64,000 bases of DNA from Nitrosomonadales bacterium (GTDB taxonomy: Bacteria; Pseudomonadota; Gammaproteobacteria; Burkholderiales; Gallionellaceae): assembly GCA_016223025.1 (NCBI GenBank), contig JACRPU010000010.1:1-64000 (forward strand), read 5' to 3'. The notes below the pieces were generated by a model. That model had not been told where the DNA came from and made no database searches. It was given only the letters and a program-made list of their open reading frames with translations. This document shows positions 2,370 to 15,815 of this stretch, in pieces; position 1 is the stretch's first letter, and each line of letters begins with the position of its first letter. The position numbers and the translations under genes were made by a program.

Positions 2370-4386
2370 CCCGCTGCCCCGCCCGCCCCTGCCGCAGCGG
2401 ACCCATTTCGGTTTTCTGCTGCCCTGGATGGTGCTCGTCTTCGGCCTGCTTATCACGCACCAGTTGTGGCGGCACGCGCAGCAGAGCGCCGAAGAGGCGC
2501 TGCAAGCGGATTTCGATTCTCTCGTGCGCGAGACAAACGGCCATATCGAACAGCGCATGGCGGTCTACGAGCAGGTGCTGCGCGGGGCGGACGGCCTGTT
2601 CGCCCACGCCGGCGTCGTGACGCGCGGGGAGTTCCGCGACTACATCGCCCGCTTGCGCCTGAAAGAAAGCTACCCCGGCATCCAGGGAATACGATTCTCC
2701 CCCGTCGTGCCGCTGGCAGAAAAAGAACGCCACATCGCCGCCATGCGCCTGGAAGGCATGGCCGGATATTCCATTCACCCGGAGGGCGTGCGCGATTTCT
2801 ACGCGCCGGTGATGTACACCGAGCCGCATGACGTGCGCAACCGGGTGATTTTCGGTTACGACACCTACTCCGACCGGGATCAGCCCGTGCCCGGCGAACA
2901 CGTTGCCGGGGAGCGCCGCGCCGCCATGGAGCAGGCGCGCGATACCGGCAATGCCGTCATTTCCGGCAAGGTCAAACTGCTGTTCGAGACCGGCAAGGAT
3001 ATGCAGGCCGGTTTCCTGATGTTTCTGCCCGTGTACCGGTACGGCGCGCCGCACGGCACCCTCGCCGAGCGCCGCGCCAACCTCATCGGCTGGATCAGCC
3101 TGGTATTCCGCATGGGCGATCTTATGGCCGGCATCCTCGGCGAGCGCGCCGCCGAGATGGACACCGAAATTTTTGACGGCGAGAAAATATCGGAAAAGAC
3201 GCTGATGCTCGATACCGACGGCGTTCCGCTCGCCCTTATCAAATCGTCCGATCCGCGATTCAGCGCCGTTGACCGCCTCAAGATCGCCAGCCATATCTGG
3301 ACGGTGGCAAACTATTCCCTGCCAGATCTTGAAGCGCAGATGGACAGGAGCAAACCGCAACTCATCGGCAACGGCGGCATCGTCACCAGCATATTGCTCG
3401 CCCTGCTCACCTGGCTGCTGGTGCATGGCCGGGAGCGCGCCCTGCAGGCGGCGCGCAGGATGAACCGGGAACTGATCGAGCGCGAAGAGCGGCTGCGGCT
3501 CGCCGCCACCGTATTCGAAACCGTGGACGAGGCGGTGATGGTGACCAACCCGGACAACCGCATCATCGCGGTCAACCCGTCGTTCACGCGGATCACCGGC
3601 TACTCCGCCGACGAGGTGATCGGCAGGAACCCGCGCATGTTTTCCTCCGGCAAGCACCCGCCAGAATTCTTCAGGGAGCTATGGGAAGCGCTGCTCGCCA
3701 AAGGCATCTGGAAAGGCGAGCTGTGGAACTGCCGCAAGAACGGCGAGGTTTACGTCGGCTGGTTTTCCTTCAACCGGGTATTCGATGAAACGGGCAACCT
3801 CACCCACTACGTATCGGTGTTTTCCGACATCAGCGAGCGCAAGGCCGCAGAAGAGCGCATCCGCCAGATGGCGCATTACGACCGGCTCACCAATCTGCCC
3901 AACCGCGCGCTGTTCAGCGACCGCTTCCGGCAGGCGCTCGCGAAAGCCCTACGGGACAGAACGCGCATGGCGCTGCTGTTCATAGACCTCGACAAGTTCA
4001 AGCCGGTCAACGACACGCACGGCCACAACGTGGGCGATATGCTGCTGGTGGAAGTGGCGAAGCGTTTGCAGTATTGCGTGCGCGGCTCCGACACCGTGTC
4101 GCGGGTGGGCGGCGACGAATTCATCGTGCTGCTGGCGACCATCGAGAAGGAACAGGATGCCATGATGGTCGCGGAGAAAATCCGCGGCGCCCTCAACCAG
4201 CCGTTCGAGCTGGCCGGGCTGGTTCTGCACATTTCTTCCAGCATCGGCGTCGCCCTCTATCCGGAACACGGCAGCGACGAGGAGCAACTATGCAAGTGCG
4301 CCGACATTGCCATGTACCGCGCCAAGGAAAACGGGCGCGACAACGCGCAGCTCTACCGCGCGGAGATGGAGAAAGTCAGCCGGTGA
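2356..4386 (+). CDS. CHASE-PAS-GGDEF membrane diguanylate cyclase
   Basis: Predicted inner-membrane sensor that makes c-di-GMP from GTP. A hydrophobic segment near residues 19-38 and another near 336-356 flank a periplasmic CHASE-like domain (about 75-290, with the family-like stretch YPGIQGIRFSPVVP). A PAS domain follows (about 378-490, NPSFTRITGYSADEVIG), then a GGDEF domain with an intact GGDEF at residues 585-589 and a DLTNLPNR-like opening. CHASE domains usually bind small extracellular ligands; which one cannot be told here. The ATG lies inside the end of the upstream phosphodiesterase gene, so an opposing cyclase and phosphodiesterase are made from one transcript. A repeat element follows the stop codon. 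Confidence 0.88.
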   Translation: MSGPDPLPRPPLPQRTHFGFLLPWMVLVFGLLITHQLWRHAQQSAEEALQADFDSLVRETNGHIEQRMAVYEQVLRGADGLFAHAGVVTRGEFRDYIARLRLKESYPGIQGIRFSPVVPLAEKERHIAAMRLEGMAGYSIHPEGVRDFYAPVMYTEPHDVRNRVIFGYDTYSDRDQPVPGEHVAGERRAAMEQARDTGNAVISGKVKLLFETGKDMQAGFLMFLPVYRYGAPHGTLAERRANLIGWISLVFRMGDLMAGILGERAAEMDTEIFDGEKISEKTLMLDTDGVPLALIKSSDPRFSAVDRLKIASHIWTVANYSLPDLEAQMDRSKPQLIGNGGIVTSILLALLTWLLVHGRERALQAARRMNRELIEREERLRLAATVFETVDEAVMVTNPDNRIIAVNPSFTRITGYSADEVIGRNPRMFSSGKHPPEFFRELWEALLAKGIWKGELWNCRKNGEVYVGWFSFNRVFDETGNLTHYVSVFSDISERKAAEERIRQMAHYDRLTNLPNRALFSDRFRQALAKALRDRTRMALLFIDLDKFKPVNDTHGHNVGDMLLVEVAKRLQYCVRGSDTVSRVGGDEFIVLLATIEKEQDAMMVAEKIRGALNQPFELAGLVLHISSSIGVALYPEHGSDEEQLCKCADIAMYRAKENGRDNAQLYRAEMEKVSR

Positions 4387-7548: not shown

Positions 7549-10251
7549 GTGCAAACCGCAGCCAAAATCTGCCAAAGCCTGCGCGAGGGGCGCATGTCGC
7601 TGCAACGGGGGTATGAAGGTCATGCTCGGCCCGCACGGCTGTTGCGCGCCCACGCCAGGCTGGTGGACGAGCATTTGTGCGCGGCCTGGCAAATGCTGGC
7701 CATGCCGCCCGGCCTGGCGCTGGTGGCGGTGGGAGGCTACGGGCGCGGCGAGCTATATCCGAAATCCGACATTGACCTGCTGATCCTGCTCCCCGGCGAG
7801 CCGGGCGCGGCGTTGCGGCAACGCTTGCAGAAGCTGGTCGGCCTGCTGTGGGACCTCGGGCTGGAAGCCGGCCACAGCATCCGCACCGTGGCGCAATGCG
7901 TGGCGGAATCCGCCGATGTTACGGTGCGCACCAACCTGCTGGAAGCGCGCCTGATCACCGGCGCGCGCCCGCTGTTCGGGGAGATGCGGGACACGCTGGC
8001 GCGATGCATGGATCGCCGCGCGTTTTATCTGGCCAAGCAGAAAGAGCAGGAACAGCGGCACGCGCGTTTTCTGGAAGCCGACACCAACCTGGAACCCAAC
8101 CTGAAGGAAAGCCCGGGCGGCCTGCGCGACCTGCATTCCGTGTTGTGGATCAGCCGCGCCGCCGGTTTGGGCAACACCTGGCGCGAGCTGGCTGCCGCCG
8201 GCCTGATAACCGCGCAGGAAGCCATCGCCATCGCGCGCCACGAGGCCTTGCTGCAAACCTTGCGCATCCGTTTGCATTATCTGGCCGGGCGCCGCGAAGA
8301 CCGCCTGCTGTTCGATTACCAGGCTGCCGTTGCGGAGCAGATGGAAATCGCGGGCGCAAAGGAGTCGAGAAACAATAAGTTGGACAATTATGGGTGTGCT
8401 GGCGGGATGCGATGCAAGGCGCCAGGCGCGCCGCATGGCCATTCCATGCAAGCGGCTGGCAACGCCGCAACGCGCCCGTCAGCGCGGCCAGAATGTTCGA
8501 GTTATTGTTTCTCGACTCCCAAGGGCGCGCGCCGCGCCAGCGAGCACCTGATGAAGCGCTTTTACCGCACCCGGCAGGCGGTGCTGCTGCTCAACGCCGT
8601 GCTGTTGCAGAACCTGCGCGCGCGCCTGTTTCCGGAAGCGGGCATGACAAACCCGCTCAACGCGCGTTTCGTGACGCGCGACACCCTGCTGGAAACGCGC
8701 GATGAAATGTTGTTCGAGCGCGAACCGGAGGCGATTCTGGAATGCTTCCTGCTGCTGGCGCAACACCCGCGCCTGACCGGATTTTCCGCCTCCACCCTGC
8801 GCGCGCTATGGCGCGCACGTCGCAAAATGGATGCGGCCTTCCGGCGCAATGCCGGCAACCGCGCGCTGTTCCTGGAAATCCTGCGCCAGCCGCAAGGCAT
8901 CACGCACACGTTGCGGCGCATGAACCAGCTCGGCATCCTGGGGCGCTATTTGCCCGCTTTCGGGCGCGTTGTCGGGCAAATGCAGTACGACCTGTTTCAT
9001 GTTTATACCGTGGATGAACACATCCTGATGGTGGTGCGCAACCTGCGCCGCCTCAATCTTGCCGCCCATGCCCACGAACACCCTTTGTGCAGCAAGCTGA
9101 TCCATGATTTTGCCCGCCCCGAAGTGCTGTACATCGCCGGCCTGTTTCACGACATCGCCAAGGGGCGCGGCGGCGACCACTCGGCCCTGGGCAGGGCGGA
9201 TGCGGCGCGCTTCTGCAAGGCGCACGGCCTGAGGCCGGAAGATGCCGAGCTGGTGGCGTGGCTGGTGGAGCATCACCTCACCCTGTCGGCCACGGCGCAG
9301 AAACAGGATCTTTCCGACCAGGACGTGATCGCCGCTTTCGCCGCCAAAATTCCGAACGACCGCTATCTGGTGGCGCTGTACCTGCTCACCGTGGCGGACA
9401 TCTGCGGCACCAGCCCGAAAGTCTGGAATGCGTGGAAAAGCAAACTGCTCGAAGATCTGTTCCGGGCGACGCGCCGCTACATGATGGGCGGCAAAAGCGC
9501 CGACCAGGTGGGAGATATCCGCGCGCGCGCGCGCGAAATCCTCAACCTGTACGCGATGGATCCGGAGGCCCACGAAATGCTGTGGGCGCAGCTCGACGCG
9601 GAATATTTTCTGCGCCACGAACCGGACGAAATCGCCTGGCATACCCGCTTGCTGGCCCGCCGCGCCAACAGCGCAACCCCCGTGGTCAAAGTGCGCCTGA
9701 GCCGCATCGGAGAGGGCCTGCAAGTAATGGTGTACTGCCCGGATCAACCTTACTTGTTCGCGCGCATCTGCGCTTTTTTCGAGCGGATGCGCTACAACAT
9801 CATGGAAGCCAAGATTCACACCACCCAGCACGGCTATGCGCTGGACAGTTTTTTAGTGATGGGTACGGGCCATACCGAAATGGCCTACCGCGACGTGATG
9901 AACTTCATCGAGTACGAGCTGGCGCAAAAACTTGGCGGCCAGGAGGCCCTGCCCACACCCCAGTCAGGCAGGGTAAGCCGCCAGCTCAAGCATTTTCCCA
10001 TCGCGCCGGAAGTCCGCATAGAAGCCGACGAAAAAGGCCGTTTCATGATGTCCGTCGTCGCGGGTGACCGGCCCGGCCTGCTGGCGCGCATCGCCTATGT
10101 GCTGGCGCGCCACCACATCAACCTGCGCAGCGCCAAAATCAACACGCTGGGGTCGCGCGCCGAAGACACTTTCCACATAAACGGCGCATCGCTGGCCCAA
10201 CCTAGCGCCGTTGCCCTGCTGCGCGAAGAGCTGTTGCGGCAAATCGCGTGA
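7549..10251 (+). CDS. glnD: [Protein-PII] uridylyltransferase/uridylyl-removing enzyme with in-frame insertion
   Basis: Senses glutamine and adds or removes UMP on PII proteins. Domains in order: nucleotidyltransferase (GGYGRGELYPKSDIDLLIL, about residues 61-79), helical GlnD-type domain, HD phosphohydrolase (GLFHDIAKGRGGDHS, about 530-545), and two ACT domains (about 710-790 and 825-899). At 900 residues it is about 40-50 longer than usual. The excess is residues about 272-325, encoded by a 159-base element with perfect inverted ends that splits the usual run ...EIAGAK|GARRASEHLMKRFYR. The inserted segment has no stop codon, is Cys/Gly/Ala-rich and looks unlike the rest. Frame and all catalytic motifs downstream are intact, so the enzyme may still work. 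The start is GTG; it follows map by 19 bases. Confidence 0.93.
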   Translation: MQTAAKICQSLREGRMSLQRGYEGHARPARLLRAHARLVDEHLCAAWQMLAMPPGLALVAVGGYGRGELYPKSDIDLLILLPGEPGAALRQRLQKLVGLLWDLGLEAGHSIRTVAQCVAESADVTVRTNLLEARLITGARPLFGEMRDTLARCMDRRAFYLAKQKEQEQRHARFLEADTNLEPNLKESPGGLRDLHSVLWISRAAGLGNTWRELAAAGLITAQEAIAIARHEALLQTLRIRLHYLAGRREDRLLFDYQAAVAEQMEIAGAKESRNNKLDNYGCAGGMRCKAPGAPHGHSMQAAGNAATRPSARPECSSYCFSTPKGARRASEHLMKRFYRTRQAVLLLNAVLLQNLRARLFPEAGMTNPLNARFVTRDTLLETRDEMLFEREPEAILECFLLLAQHPRLTGFSASTLRALWRARRKMDAAFRRNAGNRALFLEILRQPQGITHTLRRMNQLGILGRYLPAFGRVVGQMQYDLFHVYTVDEHILMVVRNLRRLNLAAHAHEHPLCSKLIHDFARPEVLYIAGLFHDIAKGRGGDHSALGRADAARFCKAHGLRPEDAELVAWLVEHHLTLSATAQKQDLSDQDVIAAFAAKIPNDRYLVALYLLTVADICGTSPKVWNAWKSKLLEDLFRATRRYMMGGKSADQVGDIRARAREILNLYAMDPEAHEMLWAQLDAEYFLRHEPDEIAWHTRLLARRANSATPVVKVRLSRIGEGLQVMVYCPDQPYLFARICAFFERMRYNIMEAKIHTTQHGYALDSFLVMGTGHTEMAYRDVMNFIEYELAQKLGGQEALPTPQSGRVSRQLKHFPIAPEVRIEADEKGRFMMSVVAGDRPGLLARIAYVLARHHINLRSAKINTLGSRAEDTFHINGASLAQPSAVALLREELLRQIA
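8361..8519. mobile_element. MITE-like palindromic element inserted in frame in glnD
   Basis: Perfect 18-base inverted ends: GGAGTCGAGAAACAATAA at 8361-8378 and its reverse complement at 8502-8519. The similarity of the two arms continues imperfectly for several more bases (T.G.ACA), and the centre is itself a palindrome around CATGGCCATTCCATG. The total is 159 bases. AAG occurs on both sides (8359-8361 and 8521-8523) and may be a target duplication. The net gain of 162 bases keeps the glnD frame. No transposase is present; it is non-autonomous. Confidence 0.85.
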
Positions 10252-10351
10252 AGGGGCCGCCGGTTATCCCCAGGGTAAAGTTGTTCTCGCAAATTTGTTT
10301 TATAAATCAACAGATGAATGACTTTCCCCCCCCGGTCAATCTTAAAGAAAC

Positions 10352-10386
10352 GTAGGGCGGATAAGCGCTGCGCTTATCCGCCCTAC
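10352..10386. repeat. Perfect REP-like hairpin between glnD and the coiled-coil gene
   Basis: GTAGGGCGGATAAGCG, a 3-base loop CTG and the exact reverse complement form a 16-bp stem. It overlaps the TAG stop of the gene on the minus strand and lies 100 bases after glnD, between convergent genes. This is a common proteobacterial dispersed palindrome. No T run follows on either strand, so it is an end-stabilising or rho-aiding structure rather than a classical terminator. Confidence 0.75.
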
Positions 10387-12794
10387 AAGCTTTCTTCGTC
10401 GGGTATCGGGAATGCCCGCAACCGGGTGGCAAGTTTCAGGCCCTGCCAGGCGGCTCCTCCTTCAACCGGCGGCGGGGCATCCGGCAACGCGGCTGAGGCC
10501 TGATTCTGCGGTGCCGGCAATGCCCTGACATCTGCCGCTGCCCGCATTTCCACGCTCGCTGCCGCAGGCTGCGCCGCCTTCGCCATCGCCTCACCCGTGG
10601 TCGGCGCGGAGAAATCCGGCGCAAGCGGCGACAGCACCGCCAACCCGAACAGCAGCGATGCGAGCAGGGATGCCCGGGTTAGCGAATTGCGCCGATCCGC
10701 CTTGCGCAGTCTCTCCAGGAGCCGCCCGGTCTCCGCCTCCGCATTGGCCTGCCGGATTTCTTCGCACAATCCTGCCGCAGAAACCCGGTGGAACTCCTCG
10801 CGCGCCTGCAATGCCAGCGCCACTTCCTTCTGCAACCGCGCCTTTTCCTGCAAGGCAAGGGTTGCCTGCTGCTGCGCCCGCGTTTTCCCTTCCGCCGCCT
10901 CGCGCGCATTCCGCTCGGCCTGCTCCAAGTCGCGCGCCGCCGCCGCCGCCATTTCTTCGGCTGCGATGCGCGCCCCGGTTTCCGCTCCGGCGCGCCGCTC
11001 ATCATCCAGGCGCGACTGTTGCAGGTCGCGCGCGCGCGCCTCCGCAACGCATCTGGATTGCGCGCTCTCCAGATATTGCCGCTCGATGCGCGCGCTTTCC
11101 TCGGCCAGCAACCTGGCCTGCTGTTCGGCGTCAAGCCGCTGGCGCGCCATGGCCGCAGCGCGCGCTTCTGCTTGCAGCTTTGCCTTTTCTGCTTGTGCGG
11201 CCTGCTCCACGGTATCGGCGTGCAGCCTGGCCATGTTCCGGGCACGGATTTCAGCATCTTCTTTCTCTCTGGCCGAAGCCAATGCTTGTTCCGTCAGTTT
11301 CAGCCTGGCTACCGCAGCATCCCTGGCTCGTGTTTCCGTGGCTATGCGTTCGTTATCCGCCTCGATCGCCTGTAATTCTGCGCCCATGCGCGCCCCGATT
11401 TCGGCAATCGCGCGATTCTCGGTTTCCGCGCGCGCCAGCGCCACGCGCGCGGCTTCTTCCTGTTCCGCGGTGCGCTGCATGGCGGCGGCGCAGGCCTGGC
11501 GTTCCGCCTCGACGCATTCGCGGGCCGCTCCGATGGCCGCATTGGTTGCCGCCAGTTTTGCCTCTTCGGCCTGGCGCGCCGCAACAGCCAGTTCGGCGCG
11601 TTGCCGGGCGGCCTGCGCCAACTGCTTCTCGGCCAGGATTCCGGCTTGCGTTTCCTGCGCCGCCAGCCGGTCCGCCGCCAGCCGCGCCAGCTCGGCATCC
11701 GCCAGTTCTCGCTGCAAGCGCGCTTTCTCGTTTGCCGCCTGCCCGGCTTTTGCGGCCATTTCCGCGCGCCTGCCGGCCTCTGCCACGGCTTCCGCTTCGG
11801 CCCGCAACTGGATTTCCATGCCGCGAGCGGCGAGCATTTCCGCTTCGGCGCGCTGCTGCGCGAGCGCGATCAGATCCCGCTCTGCCTCCAGCTTGCATTG
11901 CGCGGCTTGCCTGGCCCGCGTTTCCGCATCCAGCCGCTCGTGCGCTTCCAGCTCTGCCTGCCGCATCAGCGCGTTGGCTTCTTCCCGTTCCCGCGCGGCC
12001 TGCTGTTCGATTTCCGCGCGGGCCGCAAGCCAATCCTGCACTTCCTGTTCCATGCGACGGCTCTGCTCGTCCGCAGCCCTGCTCCGCTCTTCCTTTTCCG
12101 CGCACGCTTTCCGGCAAGCCTCGGCCGCTTCGATTGCGCGGGCTTCCGCCTCGATACCGGCATCGGCCCGCTCTTTTGCCTGACTTTCCGCCGCCGTGCG
12201 CTGCTGCGCCAGATCAGCCGCATGGCGCTCCGCATCGGCGCGCGCCAGCGCGACCCGTTCCGCTTCCATCTCGGCTGCCGCGCGCGCCTGGCTCTCGGCC
12301 AGCGCGGCGGTTTCGGCGCGCCGCCGCGCCTGCATTGCCTCGATGGCGGCCATCTCGGCTTTGGCCCTGGCATTGACCTGCGCCAGCGCCTCTTTTTCGG
12401 CATGGGCCCGCTCTTGTATCGCTCTGGTGATTGACTCTTCCACGCCGTTTTTTTCCTGCGCCAGCAAAATCGCTTCCCGTTCGAGCCTGGCGCGGTTTTC
12501 CGCTGCTGCGCGCGCCTGCTGTTCTGCGGCCAGGCGCTGCTCCGCCGCTTGCTGCGCGTCCTGTTCCGCGCGATTTTTCGCTTCGACCTGCTCCGCCAGA
12601 TCGCTCTCGTAGCGCGCTTTTGTCTGGGCGACCGCGCGCGCGCGCGCTTCCGCGCGCATTCTTGCCTGCAGCGCGAGCTGCGCTTCGATTTCCGCCTCCA
12701 TGCGGGCGTGCGCTTCCTGGATAGCCGCCGATTCGGCAGCGTTTTCCTCCGGTTGCGCGGCAACCAGGCGGATTCTGTTTTGTGGTGCTGACAT
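10383..12794 (-). CDS. Giant alanine/glutamate-rich coiled-coil protein with C-terminal membrane segment
   Basis: Function unknown. About 803 residues, of which roughly 40-690 form an uninterrupted Ala/Glu/Arg/Gln-rich helix with few prolines and glycines. Much of it follows a 14-residue (two-heptad) period in which an AE pair recurs, for example in the stretch near residues 145-240. A hydrophobic segment follows near the C-terminus (SLLASLLFGLAVLSPLAP), then a Pro/Ala-rich tail of about 75 residues. So a long cytoplasmic rod anchored by its C-terminal end is the simplest reading. The start was set at the second ATG (12794, MSAPQNRIRL), because GGGGC lies seven bases upstream; the first ATG at 12806 has no such site. 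It is transcribed divergently from the Ser/Thr kinase gene, whose product also has a long coiled coil. Confidence 0.75.
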   Translation of the reverse strand: MSAPQNRIRLVAAQPEENAAESAAIQEAHARMEAEIEAQLALQARMRAEARARAVAQTKARYESDLAEQVEAKNRAEQDAQQAAEQRLAAEQQARAAAENRARLEREAILLAQEKNGVEESITRAIQERAHAEKEALAQVNARAKAEMAAIEAMQARRRAETAALAESQARAAAEMEAERVALARADAERHAADLAQQRTAAESQAKERADAGIEAEARAIEAAEACRKACAEKEERSRAADEQSRRMEQEVQDWLAARAEIEQQAAREREEANALMRQAELEAHERLDAETRARQAAQCKLEAERDLIALAQQRAEAEMLAARGMEIQLRAEAEAVAEAGRRAEMAAKAGQAANEKARLQRELADAELARLAADRLAAQETQAGILAEKQLAQAARQRAELAVAARQAEEAKLAATNAAIGAARECVEAERQACAAAMQRTAEQEEAARVALARAETENRAIAEIGARMGAELQAIEADNERIATETRARDAAVARLKLTEQALASAREKEDAEIRARNMARLHADTVEQAAQAEKAKLQAEARAAAMARQRLDAEQQARLLAEESARIERQYLESAQSRCVAEARARDLQQSRLDDERRAGAETGARIAAEEMAAAAARDLEQAERNAREAAEGKTRAQQQATLALQEKARLQKEVALALQAREEFHRVSAAGLCEEIRQANAEAETGRLLERLRKADRRNSLTRASLLASLLFGLAVLSPLAPDFSAPTTGEAMAKAAQPAAASVEMRAAADVRALPAPQNQASAALPDAPPPVEGGAAWQGLKLATRLRAFPIPDEESL

Positions 12795-12994
12795 GATTTG
12801 CCCCATTCGCGTATCCGTGCCGGACGGAGTGGCACGACGCTACGATAGCAATTCGGCCTGCCAGACAAGCCCGGAATAGAAGCAGGAAACGGGGTCATTT
12901 ATCCCGAACCCGGCCACATGGCCAAAAAGGCACGCCCCCTTTCGGCAAGCCATCGGCGGAACGGGCCGTAGTGCCCATTTTTTGCAGATAGGCG

Positions 12995-13024
12995 TTACAA
13001 TAAGGCGTTAATAATTATTATAAA
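12995..13024 (+). promoter_or_regulatory. Candidate promoter for the kinase operon
   Basis: TTACAA and TATAAA are 18 bases apart in an A/T-rich island of an otherwise GC-rich 339-base divergent gap (12795-13133). The predicted leader is about 100 bases. Nothing else was recognised in the gap. Confidence 0.3.
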
Positions 13025-13133
13025 ATCCGGGAGATCTGCTCACCCGTTTCACTGGTGGGTTCTGTTTTTTGCCGGCGCGCAATGCATCTTCAAAATTCTT
13101 CATCCGAGCCGATGCACAATGTAATCAAATAAC

Positions 13134-15815
13134 ATGCTGACAAAACTCGGCAAATACGACATCAAGCGTGAGCTCGGCAAGGGCGCCATGGGCATAGTCT
13201 ATGAAGGATTCGACCCCTTCATCGAACGCACTGTCGCGATCAAGACGATCCTCAAGTCCATGCTCGACAGCGCCGAGGCAAAGGACATGCTCAGCCGCTT
13301 CCGCCGCGAAGCCCAAGCGGCCGGACGCCTCACCCATCCAAACATCGTCTCCGTTTACGAATACGGCGAAGACCAGGACATGGCGTTCATCGCCATGGAA
13401 TTCGTTCACGGCAAGGAGCTGAAAAAATATTTCGAGGCCGAAGAACGCTTCCACATGAAGGACATCGTGCGCCTCATGACGCAGCTTCTCGATGCCCTCG
13501 AATATTCCCACAACCGCGGCGTGGTGCACCGCGACATCAAGCCGGCAAATATCATCATCACTGAAGACAGGCAGTTGAAGGTTGCGGATTTCGGCATCGC
13601 CAAAATCGAATCCTCCCAACTCACCCAGGTCGGCACCGTGCTCGGCACACCCACTCACATGTCGCCCGAGCAGTTCATGGGCCTCGCCGCGGATCGCCGC
13701 AGCGATATTTATTCTTCGGGTGTCATTCTCTACCAGTTCCTCACCGGCGAACGGCCATTCACCGGCAGTGTGATCACCATCATGCACAAGGTGCTGAATC
13801 AGGAACCGGTGCCGCCGTCCACGCTCAACTTCAATGTCTCGAAGGCTCTCGATGAGGTGGTAAAAAGGGCCATGGCAAAGCGCCCGGAAGATCGTTTTCA
13901 AACCGCCCGCGAATTTGCCGAAGCATTGCGGGGCGCCGCCGAAGGGGAGATGACCGCCATTACCGGAGCCGGAGCCGCGCCGGATGAGACGGTGATCTCC
14001 GCAGATGGGGATATTGCCTCGCAATCCGGAACCGCCGCCGAAATCAACCAGGAAGAACTCGATCTTTGGAAGCGCCTTCAAAGCAGCACCCGCATCCCGG
14101 ATTTGCAGCTTTACCTGAACAAATACCCCGATGGCACTTTCACCGACCTCGCAAAATCGAAGATCGCCGCACTGGAAAAAAACCAGCTCGATCGCAGGGG
14201 AGCGAACCGGGCGCAACTGGCGGAGGCTGACGCTGAAGCCGATTCTTCCCAGACCGAAATCAACTTCTGGCGCCGCATCAAAGCCAGCGCCGATCCAAAA
14301 GACTTCGAGGCTTATCTCGAAACATATCCCAAGGGGCATTTTGCGGAGCTTGCCAAACTGAGACTCGGTTCCTTTGGTAAAGCCGGGCCTTCCGGCAAGG
14401 AACGGGAGAATAAGCCTGCCGCAGAAACGCGGGTGATTCCCCCGCCGTTCGCGGAAAAAGAAGCGCTGCAGGCTCCCGGGAAGGAGGGGAAAAAACTTCC
14501 ATGGGCCGGCATCGCTGCCGGTGTGCTGGCTATTGCGGGAGCCGGCGTGGCATGGTTCGCCCTGAAGCCGCCCCCGGCGCCGCCGCCGGAAACTGTGGCA
14601 AAACCCGCGCCGCTGTCGGCTGAAGCTCAGGCGAGGGCTGATGCCGAGAAAGCCAAACAGGAAAGGGAGAAATTGCAGCAGCAAATGGCGGATCTGGTCA
14701 AGCTGGAGCAAGAAAAGCTGGCGTTGGCCAAGCTGGAAAGAGAAAAAATAGAGAAAGCCAACCTGGAAAAAGAAAAGGCGGACAAAGAACTGGAAGAGAA
14801 GGTCAAGCAGGAACAGGAGCTGATAGCCAAGATCAGGGAAGAGACCCTGCGGGAACAGGAACGGGCAGCGAAAGCCAAGCTGGAAGGCGAAAGACTGGAG
14901 AAAGCCAGGCTGGAAAAAGATAGATTGGCCCAGGAAAAAGAGAAATTGGCTCAGGAAAAAGAGAAATTGGCTCAGGAAAAACTGGCCAAGGAAAAACTGA
15001 CAGCCGCGCAATTAGCCGCCAACGCCGAGAAGATCAGACAGGAAAAAGAAAAAGCGGACAAGGAAAGGGCGGCAGCGGAGAAGGAAAGGGCGGCAGCGGA
15101 GAAGGCCAGGCTGGAACTTGAAAAAGCCGAGCAAGCCAGACTGGCAAAAGAGAAGGCGCTCAGAGCCGAGCAGGAACAGGCCCTGGCGAAACTGAAAGCT
15201 GAAAGAGAAGCTGCCGCAGCCAAGGCTGCGGAGGCCAAGACGCGCGCAGAGGCCGAAAAAGCTGCGGCGAAAGCCCGCGCCGAAGCAGATGCCATAGCCG
15301 AGAAAAAACGCATTCTCGAGGCCAAGGCAGAGGCAGAGGCCGAGAAGTCGAGACTGGAAGCGGAGGCAAAAGCAAAGGCCGACGCGGAAGCATCAGCGGC
15401 GGCCAAGACAAAGGCTGCTGCTGAAAAAGCGGCGGCGGATAAAGCAAAGGCCGACGCGGAAGCCGCCGCAGCCAAGGCAAGGGCCGATGCGGATGCCGAA
15501 GCAAAACGCAAGGCAGAAGCAGAAAAGGCCAAGGAGGCCGCTGCGCCTCCAGCGGCGCCAAGCGCGGTCGCGGCGGGCGACCCGGCAGAGCTGTATCAGC
15601 ATGGCCTGAGGGAAGAGGGCAAGGGCAACATCGCCGCCGCAATGAAACTGTTCAAGGATTCCGCCAGTGCGGGTTACGGTCCGGCGATGAAAAAACTCGG
15701 CGACATTTACGGCGTAGGCAATGACGCCGTACCCCGCGATTATGCGGCCTCGATCAAGTGGTACAACAAGGCCAGGCAAGCCGGCATGGCCCTCGATGCC
15801 AACATAAAGCGCTGA
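13134..15815 (+). CDS. Transmembrane Ser/Thr protein kinase with TolA-like stalk and Sel1-like tail
   Basis: A Hanks-type kinase of 893 residues. The kinase domain (about 8-265) has the glycine loop GKGAMG, the catalytic Lys in VAIK, HRDIKPANI, DFG and SPEQ. Two repeats of about 45 residues follow (about 302-350 and 372-415, with ELDLWKRLQSS / EINFWRRIKAS and LYLNKYPDGTF / AYLETYPKGHF). One transmembrane helix lies at about 455-477, then a Pro-rich linker, then about 300 residues of charged coiled coil rich in K, E and A (about 500-800), and last a Sel1/TPR-like tail (about 815-892). Topology: kinase inside, stalk and tail in the periplasm. Its TGA overlaps the ATG of the BON gene. Substrates are unknown; no FHA or PP2C phosphatase gene is nearby. 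Confidence 0.9.
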   Translation: MLTKLGKYDIKRELGKGAMGIVYEGFDPFIERTVAIKTILKSMLDSAEAKDMLSRFRREAQAAGRLTHPNIVSVYEYGEDQDMAFIAMEFVHGKELKKYFEAEERFHMKDIVRLMTQLLDALEYSHNRGVVHRDIKPANIIITEDRQLKVADFGIAKIESSQLTQVGTVLGTPTHMSPEQFMGLAADRRSDIYSSGVILYQFLTGERPFTGSVITIMHKVLNQEPVPPSTLNFNVSKALDEVVKRAMAKRPEDRFQTAREFAEALRGAAEGEMTAITGAGAAPDETVISADGDIASQSGTAAEINQEELDLWKRLQSSTRIPDLQLYLNKYPDGTFTDLAKSKIAALEKNQLDRRGANRAQLAEADAEADSSQTEINFWRRIKASADPKDFEAYLETYPKGHFAELAKLRLGSFGKAGPSGKERENKPAAETRVIPPPFAEKEALQAPGKEGKKLPWAGIAAGVLAIAGAGVAWFALKPPPAPPPETVAKPAPLSAEAQARADAEKAKQEREKLQQQMADLVKLEQEKLALAKLEREKIEKANLEKEKADKELEEKVKQEQELIAKIREETLREQERAAKAKLEGERLEKARLEKDRLAQEKEKLAQEKEKLAQEKLAKEKLTAAQLAANAEKIRQEKEKADKERAAAEKERAAAEKARLELEKAEQARLAKEKALRAEQEQALAKLKAEREAAAAKAAEAKTRAEAEKAAAKARAEADAIAEKKRILEAKAEAEAEKSRLEAEAKAKADAEASAAAKTKAAAEKAAADKAKADAEAAAAKARADADAEAKRKAEAEKAKEAAAPPAAPSAVAAGDPAELYQHGLREEGKGNIAAAMKLFKDSASAGYGPAMKKLGDIYGVGNDAVPRDYAASIKWYNKARQAGMALDANIKR

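Follow-up and report, generated by a model that had tools for sequence, protein, structure and literature searches.

We analysed a 64,000-nucleotide stretch of DNA (the window) from a Nitrosomonadales bacterium of the family Gallionellaceae (assembly GCA_016223025.1, contig JACRPU010000010.1, positions 1 to 64,000). The gene under study lies on the minus strand between a convergent glnD gene and a divergent gene for a Ser/Thr kinase; the names glnD, guaA, guaB and map are putative and were assigned from the sequence. The gene encodes a long helical protein, hereafter called the rod. A preliminary description of the window had placed a protein of about 800 residues at 10383-12794, and the open frame found there agreed with it. 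The rod gene and its parts are as follows.

10383..12794, minus strand: rod gene, 803 amino acids (open frame; codon-position test; homologues in 89 of 158 Gallionellaceae genomes)
12618..12794, minus strand: N-terminal head and cap, residues 1-59, MSAxxKIRLV...ESxAIQEARARxEAE (alignment A1, 25 rows)
10794..12740, minus strand: 46 tetradecad units, residues 19-667 (lag analysis and 14-state model)
12102..12107, minus strand: sole register slip, residues 230/231, four extra residues, stutter-type (14-state model; AlphaFold break at 225-238)
11205..11432, minus strand: central module, residues 455-530, RM..ELxAIEADNERI..E.RA (almost constant spacing from the N-terminus in groups of relatives)
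10617..10673, minus strand: C-terminal transmembrane (TM) helix, residues 708-726 (hydropathy, charge asymmetry, alignment A2)
10419..10439, minus strand: tail motif LKLATRL, residues 786-792 (family form L-K-[LM]-[SA]-T-E-L)

The frame runs from the ATG at 12794 to the stop codon at 10383-10385. Another in-frame ATG is present at 12806, and the start at 12794 was preferred because the first start codon of the frame matched 12794 in 19 of 33 relatives. Compared with a homologue from the same genus (796 codons, 71.6% identical residues), differences at codon positions 1, 2 and 3 numbered 137, 131 and 282, a third-position excess that supports coding. Two long frames on the plus strand (10597-12183 and 10658-12376; 528 and 572 amino acids) mirror the rod gene, and both look like antisense artefacts of GC-rich Ala codons. 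The frame at 10597-12183 shares the third-position placement (89, 97 and 186 differences), and the codon-position test alone does not exclude it; it was ruled out because the sense-frame protein is conserved throughout the family, which is the sole deciding evidence.

The rod consists of 29% Ala, 15% Glu and 12% Arg, and contains no proline in residues 21-695. Residue identity along the protein peaked at lags 14, 28, 42, 56 and 70 (z about 7-9) and was depressed at lags 7, 21 and 35, with a helical period of 3.5 residues also present. The repeating unit is therefore a tetradecad and not a doubled heptad. Ala-Glu pairs recurred 15 times at lag 14 against 3.4 expected (z 6.6), and also at lags 28, 42 and 56. 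The preliminary description had noticed this pair every 14 residues and proposed a periodicity analysis as a check, and the lag peaks bear it out. A cyclic 14-state model was fitted to 52 sequences, namely the window rod (P0001) and 51 homologues. P0001 scored +373 bits compared with -177 ± 13 for shuffled sequences, under a model that was trained on these proteins. The consensus, numbered from position 0, is A / Q,E / A,E / R,K (74%) / L,I,V / E,A / A / E,D (76%) / Q / Q,E / A,L / I,A,T / E / A.

All 33 family members showed peaks at multiples of 14. So did 17 of 19 further proteins, a set with 16 from outside the family; the exceptions were two short proteins of the family f42 (z at lag 14 about 2). 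We surveyed 351 open reading frames of at least 300 amino acids, taken from the window and from loci no shorter than 8 kb. A mean z above 4 at these lags was reached by 53 of them, every one a rod or an other-frame reading of a rod locus. The longest register free of slips, 1236 residues, was found in L118. Insertions and deletions also respect the unit: among 389 counted in 163 protein pairs, 146 were multiples of 14 (7% by chance) and 208 were multiples of 7, these being pair counts and not independent events.

Apolar residues are concentrated at positions 0, 4, 6, 10, 11 and 13 (fraction of L, I, V, M and F, 0.26-0.52), which by helical-wheel geometry share one face of the helix, with R/K at position 3 and E/D at position 7 on that same face. 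These two charged positions are conserved almost as well as the best apolar position. In 37 proteins, opposite charges were paired beyond the composition of each phase at i→i+4 (z 30) and i→i+3 (z 21), and the helix is therefore heavily self-stapled. AlphaFold, given 13 rows, predicted helices at residues 22-224, 239-510 and 528-704 at low confidence (mean predicted local distance difference test score 65.6; predicted template modelling score, pTM, 0.23), with breaks at the register slip and at 511-527. The fold was dropped as a source of function, since the model says only helix. The preliminary description had reported an unbroken helix of about 650 residues; its length stands, and "unbroken" holds approximately in view of these low-confidence breaks. 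Fully extended, 650 residues at 0.15 nm each reach about 97 nm, in line with the earlier estimate of nearly 100 nm.

The cap and the central module are among the most conserved stretches of the rod. The cap, whose rows in alignment A1 were trimmed to begin at its initial M, recurs outside Gallionellaceae. AIEADN is near-invariant within the module. The module starts near residue 612-615 in Gallionella-type members of any length (L034, L035, L039, L051, L056, L057, L058, L117 and L118), at 598 in L053, near 489-506 in most members of the 800-residue type and at 455 in the window. AIEADN itself stands at residue 631-633 in six complete Gallionella-type proteins with lengths of 768-1860 amino acids, in which the distance from the module to the C-terminus ranges from 136 to 1228 residues; in L053, which has a shortened cap, AIEADN stands at residue 617.

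The C-terminal membrane anchor reported earlier corresponds to the TM helix, which is preceded by a juxtamembrane KLRKT segment. The 20 residues before the helix contain 7 Lys and Arg and those after it contain 1. By the positive-inside rule the rod is predicted to be cytoplasmic and its 77-residue tail periplasmic, which favours one of the two sides that the preliminary description had left open for the tail. The 20 family proteins with a called TM helix have 4-7 basic residues before it and 0-3 after it, with the exception of L045, in which the hydropathy window had landed on the tail. The hydrophobic segment was below the cut-off in several Sideroxydans-type and long Gallionella-type members. 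The family form of the tail motif was matched in 25 of 34 proteins. The nine others comprise the variant LRLSTDL in L025, three proteins cut by contig ends (L022, L038 and L056), four without a TM helix (L032, L035, L037 and L039) and L030, which has a TM helix and no motif.

No Pfam or NCBIfam match was obtained for P0001 or for 13 aligned members, nor for six distant members apart from one sub-threshold match (E = 0.086), and no PDB chain matched the rod profile A3 at E ≤ 1e-5, the presence of crescentin entries in the searched set being unchecked. On these searches the rod protein is an undescribed family. The cap profile found it in the 89 Gallionellaceae genomes mentioned above. It also matched 27 of 300 genomes sampled from the order, with strong matches in 8 Gallionellaceae and weak ones (E 1e-12 to 1e-4) in 19 genomes from elsewhere in the order. 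At the level of the class, cap profile A5 (E ≤ 1e-6) matched 2 of 369 genomes, the window's own and G050, and at the level of the phylum, repeat profile A4 (E ≤ 1e-10) matched 3 of 398, all from f1 or f16. Absence elsewhere is not proven by these counts, because the A4 threshold is near the family's own scores, the window genome itself reaching only 1.7e-11. No match was found in 72,556 plasmid records at E ≤ 1e-5. A survey of openly licensed literature by titles and abstract openings returned no bacterial cytoplasmic rod with a 14-residue repeat and no such rod family.

The proteins outside the family that have at least 600 amino acids show the 14-residue period, and the two short f42 proteins show it faintly. 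Six outside proteins gave shuffle z values of 4.7-10.8 against the window rod and 1.5-7.2 against L035, which supports similarity beyond composition and phase; the shuffle disregards the single slip of the window rod, which inflates z somewhat. The short f42 homologue (243-248 amino acids) is 44% identical over 63 residues (pairwise E = 2e-8; z 6.0 over phase shuffles). Among outside proteins with a TM helix and tail, the tail motif was above chance in L100 (p = 0.001) and L114 (p = 0.0005), marginal in L112 (p = 0.026) and absent in L109 (p = 0.38); L104, L105 and L111 were left out of this scoring. The L114 protein (open reading frame at 3434) ends with the form LKMDEEL of the tail motif and begins MSRLLDSIKQAERSRQ, a start that we take to be reminiscent of GspB-type N-termini.

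Genes around rod homologues in two bacterial families other than Gallionellaceae point to flagella. In the genus g30, the rod is the next same-strand gene after fliP...fliR in 6 of 7 genomes, roughly 90-200 bp past fliR; in the seventh (L099), the 9-kb locus contains neither fliP nor fliR. The flagellar names were assigned by Pfam for L101, L102 and L106 and by similarity to L101 for L103, L107 and L110. Ammonia monooxygenase is present in five of the seven g30 genomes. In the two f42 genomes, the short homologue consists of the cap, the AIEADN module and a TM helix, and its gene lies between genes for a ParA-like ATPase and a GGDEF protein, the ATPase gene directly preceding it (L105, 3763-4557; L112, 4891-5688). 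Pfam matches in L133 of f42 comprise FlhB, FlhA, an SRP-type GTPase (FlhF-like), a sigma-70-type factor (FliA-like), two MotB-like proteins, FlaG and FliD, and L105, which overlaps L133, has a Pfam-confirmed flagellin. In the other f42 genome, Pfam matched a sigma factor in L134 and the ATPase and GGDEF proteins in the overlapping L112; the FlhA-, FlaG- and FliD-like readings in L134 were made only from the starts of the sequences, and L134 showed no flagellin. The f42 gene read as FlhG had no Pfam match.

These neighbours led to the prediction that rod and flagella occur together, which was tested in Gallionellaceae using flagellin (PF00669) or FlgI (PF02119) as flagellar markers. Among the 158 genomes, 87 had both rod and flagella, 2 had the rod alone, 30 had flagella alone and 39 had neither (p = 9e-16; this and the following values come from Fisher tests without correction for phylogeny). 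Within the genus g13, flagella were found in 43 of 45 genomes with the rod and in 6 of 31 without it (p = 3e-12), and the 44 g13 genomes with at least 90% completeness and at most 5% contamination gave 25 of 26 and 5 of 18 (p = 2e-6). As a control, the neighbouring kinase showed no association with flagella (26 of 32 with it and 91 of 126 without it; p = 0.37).

We propose, with a probability of roughly 0.55, that the rod is an inner-membrane-anchored cytoplasmic scaffold or tether for the flagellar apparatus, about 100 nm long if fully extended and most likely located at the flagellated pole. A polar location is likely because an FlhF-like gene accompanies the rod homologue in f42. The link between rod and flagella is supported by the data above, and we infer a mechanism as follows. 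The TM helix would fix the C-terminal end of the rod at the membrane, and rods would associate through the apolar face, the R/K-E/D pair of each unit acting as a helix staple or a register key. The strand-like tail motif may dock onto a periplasmic partner. The cap and the AIEADN module are likely sites for binding cytoplasmic partners, because they are highly conserved and because the short f42 proteins consist of these two parts and a TM helix; the ParA-like ATPase is a candidate partner, because its gene adjoins that of the short homologue. The membrane-proximal part would be a stalk of variable length. Going further, and distinctly more tentatively, the rods may form a new class of flagellum-serving tetradecad proteins, an arm for measuring or tethering, its distal segment fixed in length and its membrane-proximal stalk adjustable in evolution. 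Such an arm would reach from a periplasmic partner, bound by the LKLSTEL tail, to a ParA-type system at the pole that bears the flagellum.

Several observations weigh against a flagellar scaffold. The genomes compared in the Fisher tests are related to each other. Thirty flagellated Gallionellaceae have no rod, including 14 of 14 in g9 and 3 of 3 in g14, so flagella do not in general require the rod; among these thirty, G035 carries a rod fragment without the N-terminus. Two genomes, G104 and G128, have the rod and neither marker. Their rods are altered, that of G128 lacking part of the cap (L053/L116) and that of G104 showing no TM helix by eye (L130), and this would fit relaxed selection, but rods without a TM helix also occur in five flagellated Gallionellaceae (L032, L035, L037 and L039, and L131 by eye). 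Within Gallionellaceae the rod gene is not beside flagellar genes, and inspection by eye revealed no flagellar gene within two genes of the homologues in f8, f19, f24 and f38. The g30 homologues share the cap and the repeat only and have no TM helix, tail motif or clear central module. The modules of the f42 proteins scored 43.9 and 39.5, above the 95th percentile (34.5) and below the maximum (45.1) of 156 block shuffles that keep 14-residue pieces of true modules, and the shuffle z of these two proteins against L035 was 1.5 and 2.2. Charge pairing at i→i+5, which is typical of parallel dimers, was weak (z 2.4; 37 proteins).

The length of the rod, its strict repeat, its membrane anchor and its large length variation would also suit a general cytoskeletal or cell-shape filament, membrane-anchored and crescentin-like in action, with flagella merely correlated through free-swimming lineages. 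The single four-residue slip, as in the stutters of intermediate filaments, and the distance of the Gallionellaceae gene from flagellar genes agree with such a filament. However, it does not predict a position behind fliP...fliR or in a flagellar cluster, nor the co-occurrence with flagella, and the PDB search with profile A3 also speaks against it; we regard it as unlikely, although worth keeping in mind. MreB was present in 18 of 18 genomes tested and was uninformative as a shape marker. We give about the same small weight to a monomeric or weakly associating stable single alpha-helix, a pure spacer between the membrane and a cytoplasmic client. The very strong i→i+4 and i→i+3 charge pairing beside weak i→i+5 pairing, the abundance of Ala and the pTM obtained for a single chain argue for it, whereas the charged fraction of the rod, 0.34, is low for stable single alpha-helices, the apolar face persists, and a lone helix would not need the register kept by indels in multiples of 7. 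A rod or spacer element, as the preliminary description had suggested, fits everything seen.

The preliminary description had further suggested that the rod is a substrate or partner of the kinase, from which it is indeed divergent with 339 bp between the genes (12795-13133). Overall co-occurrence of kinase and rod was weak (24/8/65/61 genomes with both, kinase only, rod only and neither; p = 0.018) and was not significant inside g13 (p = 0.21). Among 40 relative loci, 35 are distinct, and 31 of these reach 1 kb or more upstream of the rod gene; none of the 31 has an adjacent kinase. The divergent pair is thus not conserved, which is the finding that the preliminary description itself had named as counting against its proposal, and it applies to the kinase part. 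The sole kinase-domain match among the relative loci (L034) is 34% identical and lies four genes from the rod, and the sister genome G001 has the rod and its best kinase match, 48% identical, on another contig. Another 31 genomes carry close kinase relatives (E ≤ 2e-115). Eight of these have no rod; in the other 23, the rod and kinase genes either lie on separate contigs or are separated by 31 kb or more. A partnership was rejected on synteny and co-occurrence, and we consider it very improbable. Equally hard to credit is a functionless low-complexity sequence drifting in a GC-rich genome: the Ala/Glu-rich composition and the two long antisense frames would be expected of it, but not the excess of third-position differences, the register kept over hundreds of residues in long members, or the conserved cap, module and tail motif.

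The preferred reading, a membrane-anchored flagellar scaffold, can be compared with known systems as described in the available parts of the cited papers. PodJ, a polar scaffold of Caulobacter, has a cytoplasmic coiled coil, a TM anchor and a periplasmic part, and localises to the pole (PMC8980812). In the rod the predicted order is the same, but the part after the TM helix is a 77-residue tail that carries one motif and no Pfam domain, whereas PodJ has a disordered region and periplasmic TPR and peptidoglycan-binding domains (PMC8980812). HubP/FimV, a polar landmark, has a single TM helix, and its cytoplasmic part, which is repetitive and very large, interacts with ParC/ParP and FlhG (PMC8789113). 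The rod likewise has its 46 units on one side of a TM helix, assigned to the cytoplasm by the charge rule only, and differs in that this helix stands at the C-terminal end of the repeats. A periplasmic LysM domain, acidic repeats and a C-terminal TPR region are further parts of HubP (PMC8789113), and Pfam found none of them in the rod; for LysM, neither Pfam nor NCBIfam gave a match in P0001 or the 13 aligned members. Crescentin is a long helical heptad rod with a four-residue stutter in its C-terminal half, and its membrane localisation depends on the first 27 residues (PMC10873595). The rod is similarly long and helical with one four-residue slip, but the slip is at residue 230, in the N-terminal third, the units are tetradecads and not heptads, and the anchor is a C-terminal TM helix. 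FipA, a membrane protein that recruits FlhF, is encoded beside flhF/flhG and organises the polar flagellum (PMC11620751); at 18.4 kDa, with an N-terminal TM helix and DUF2802 (PMC11620751), it differs from the rod, which has no N-terminal TM helix and no DUF2802 (Pfam, E ≤ 1). In the available part of a Gallionellaceae pangenome study, the sole passage on anything cytoskeletal is a bactofilin entry (PMC10734462). As far as these sources go, the rod is like PodJ and HubP in its layout and setting but has none of the domains that define them, and is not a crescentin by repeat or anchor.

An unannotated Ala/Glu-rich open reading frame thus becomes a family with a testable function. Should the rod prove to organise flagella, betaproteobacteria that oxidise iron, and related ones that oxidise ammonia, would have a flagellar or polar scaffold unlike HubP, PodJ and FipA in its domains. 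The strict 14-residue unit, slip-free for up to 1236 residues and with one R/K and one E/D per four helical turns, is an unusual structural design. The natural series of rod lengths (536 to 2182 amino acids) could be used to ask what length does in the living cell.

The neighbouring features in the window are as follows.

7549..10251, plus strand: glnD, convergent neighbour, retained in 13 of the 35 distinct relative loci
10351..10387, no strand assigned: 17-bp palindrome between the convergent glnD and rod genes, including the rod stop codon
13134..15815, plus strand: Ser/Thr kinase with its own coil, divergent from the rod and not part of the system

Unlike the rod, the coil of the kinase has no 14-residue period; its highest peak is at lag 10, with a raised value at lag 7. 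This Ala/Glu/Lys coil is C-terminal (14912-15493) and is encoded by DNA with tandem repeats of 21 and 36 bp. GGDEF genes, met above in f42, are also found upstream of several Gallionella-type rods (L034, 5879; L035, 3601; L117, 2733; L118, 3084). The palindrome looks from its sequence like a bidirectional terminator. Terminator-like sites in the 3-kb region numbered 5 against 5.3 expected, and the stem of the palindrome was by far the longest. A repetitive extragenic palindromic (REP)-like repeat was rejected, as no second copy of the palindrome turned up in the genome even with 3 mismatches allowed.

In the 35 distinct loci, guaA lies within four genes upstream of the rod in 12, convergent glnD is present in 13, and neither is found in 13; both are near the rod in L028, L032 and L033. 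A functional link to glnD or guaBA was rejected, as a matter of judgement, on this variable co-location (one, the other, both or neither) and because these are housekeeping genes. The position of glnD next to the rod is read as ancestral and not as that of a partner. The window glnD encodes 900 amino acids, compared with 845-865 in relatives with a complete copy, and shows an apparent in-frame insertion of about 50 residues at about 8360-8560, judged by eye.

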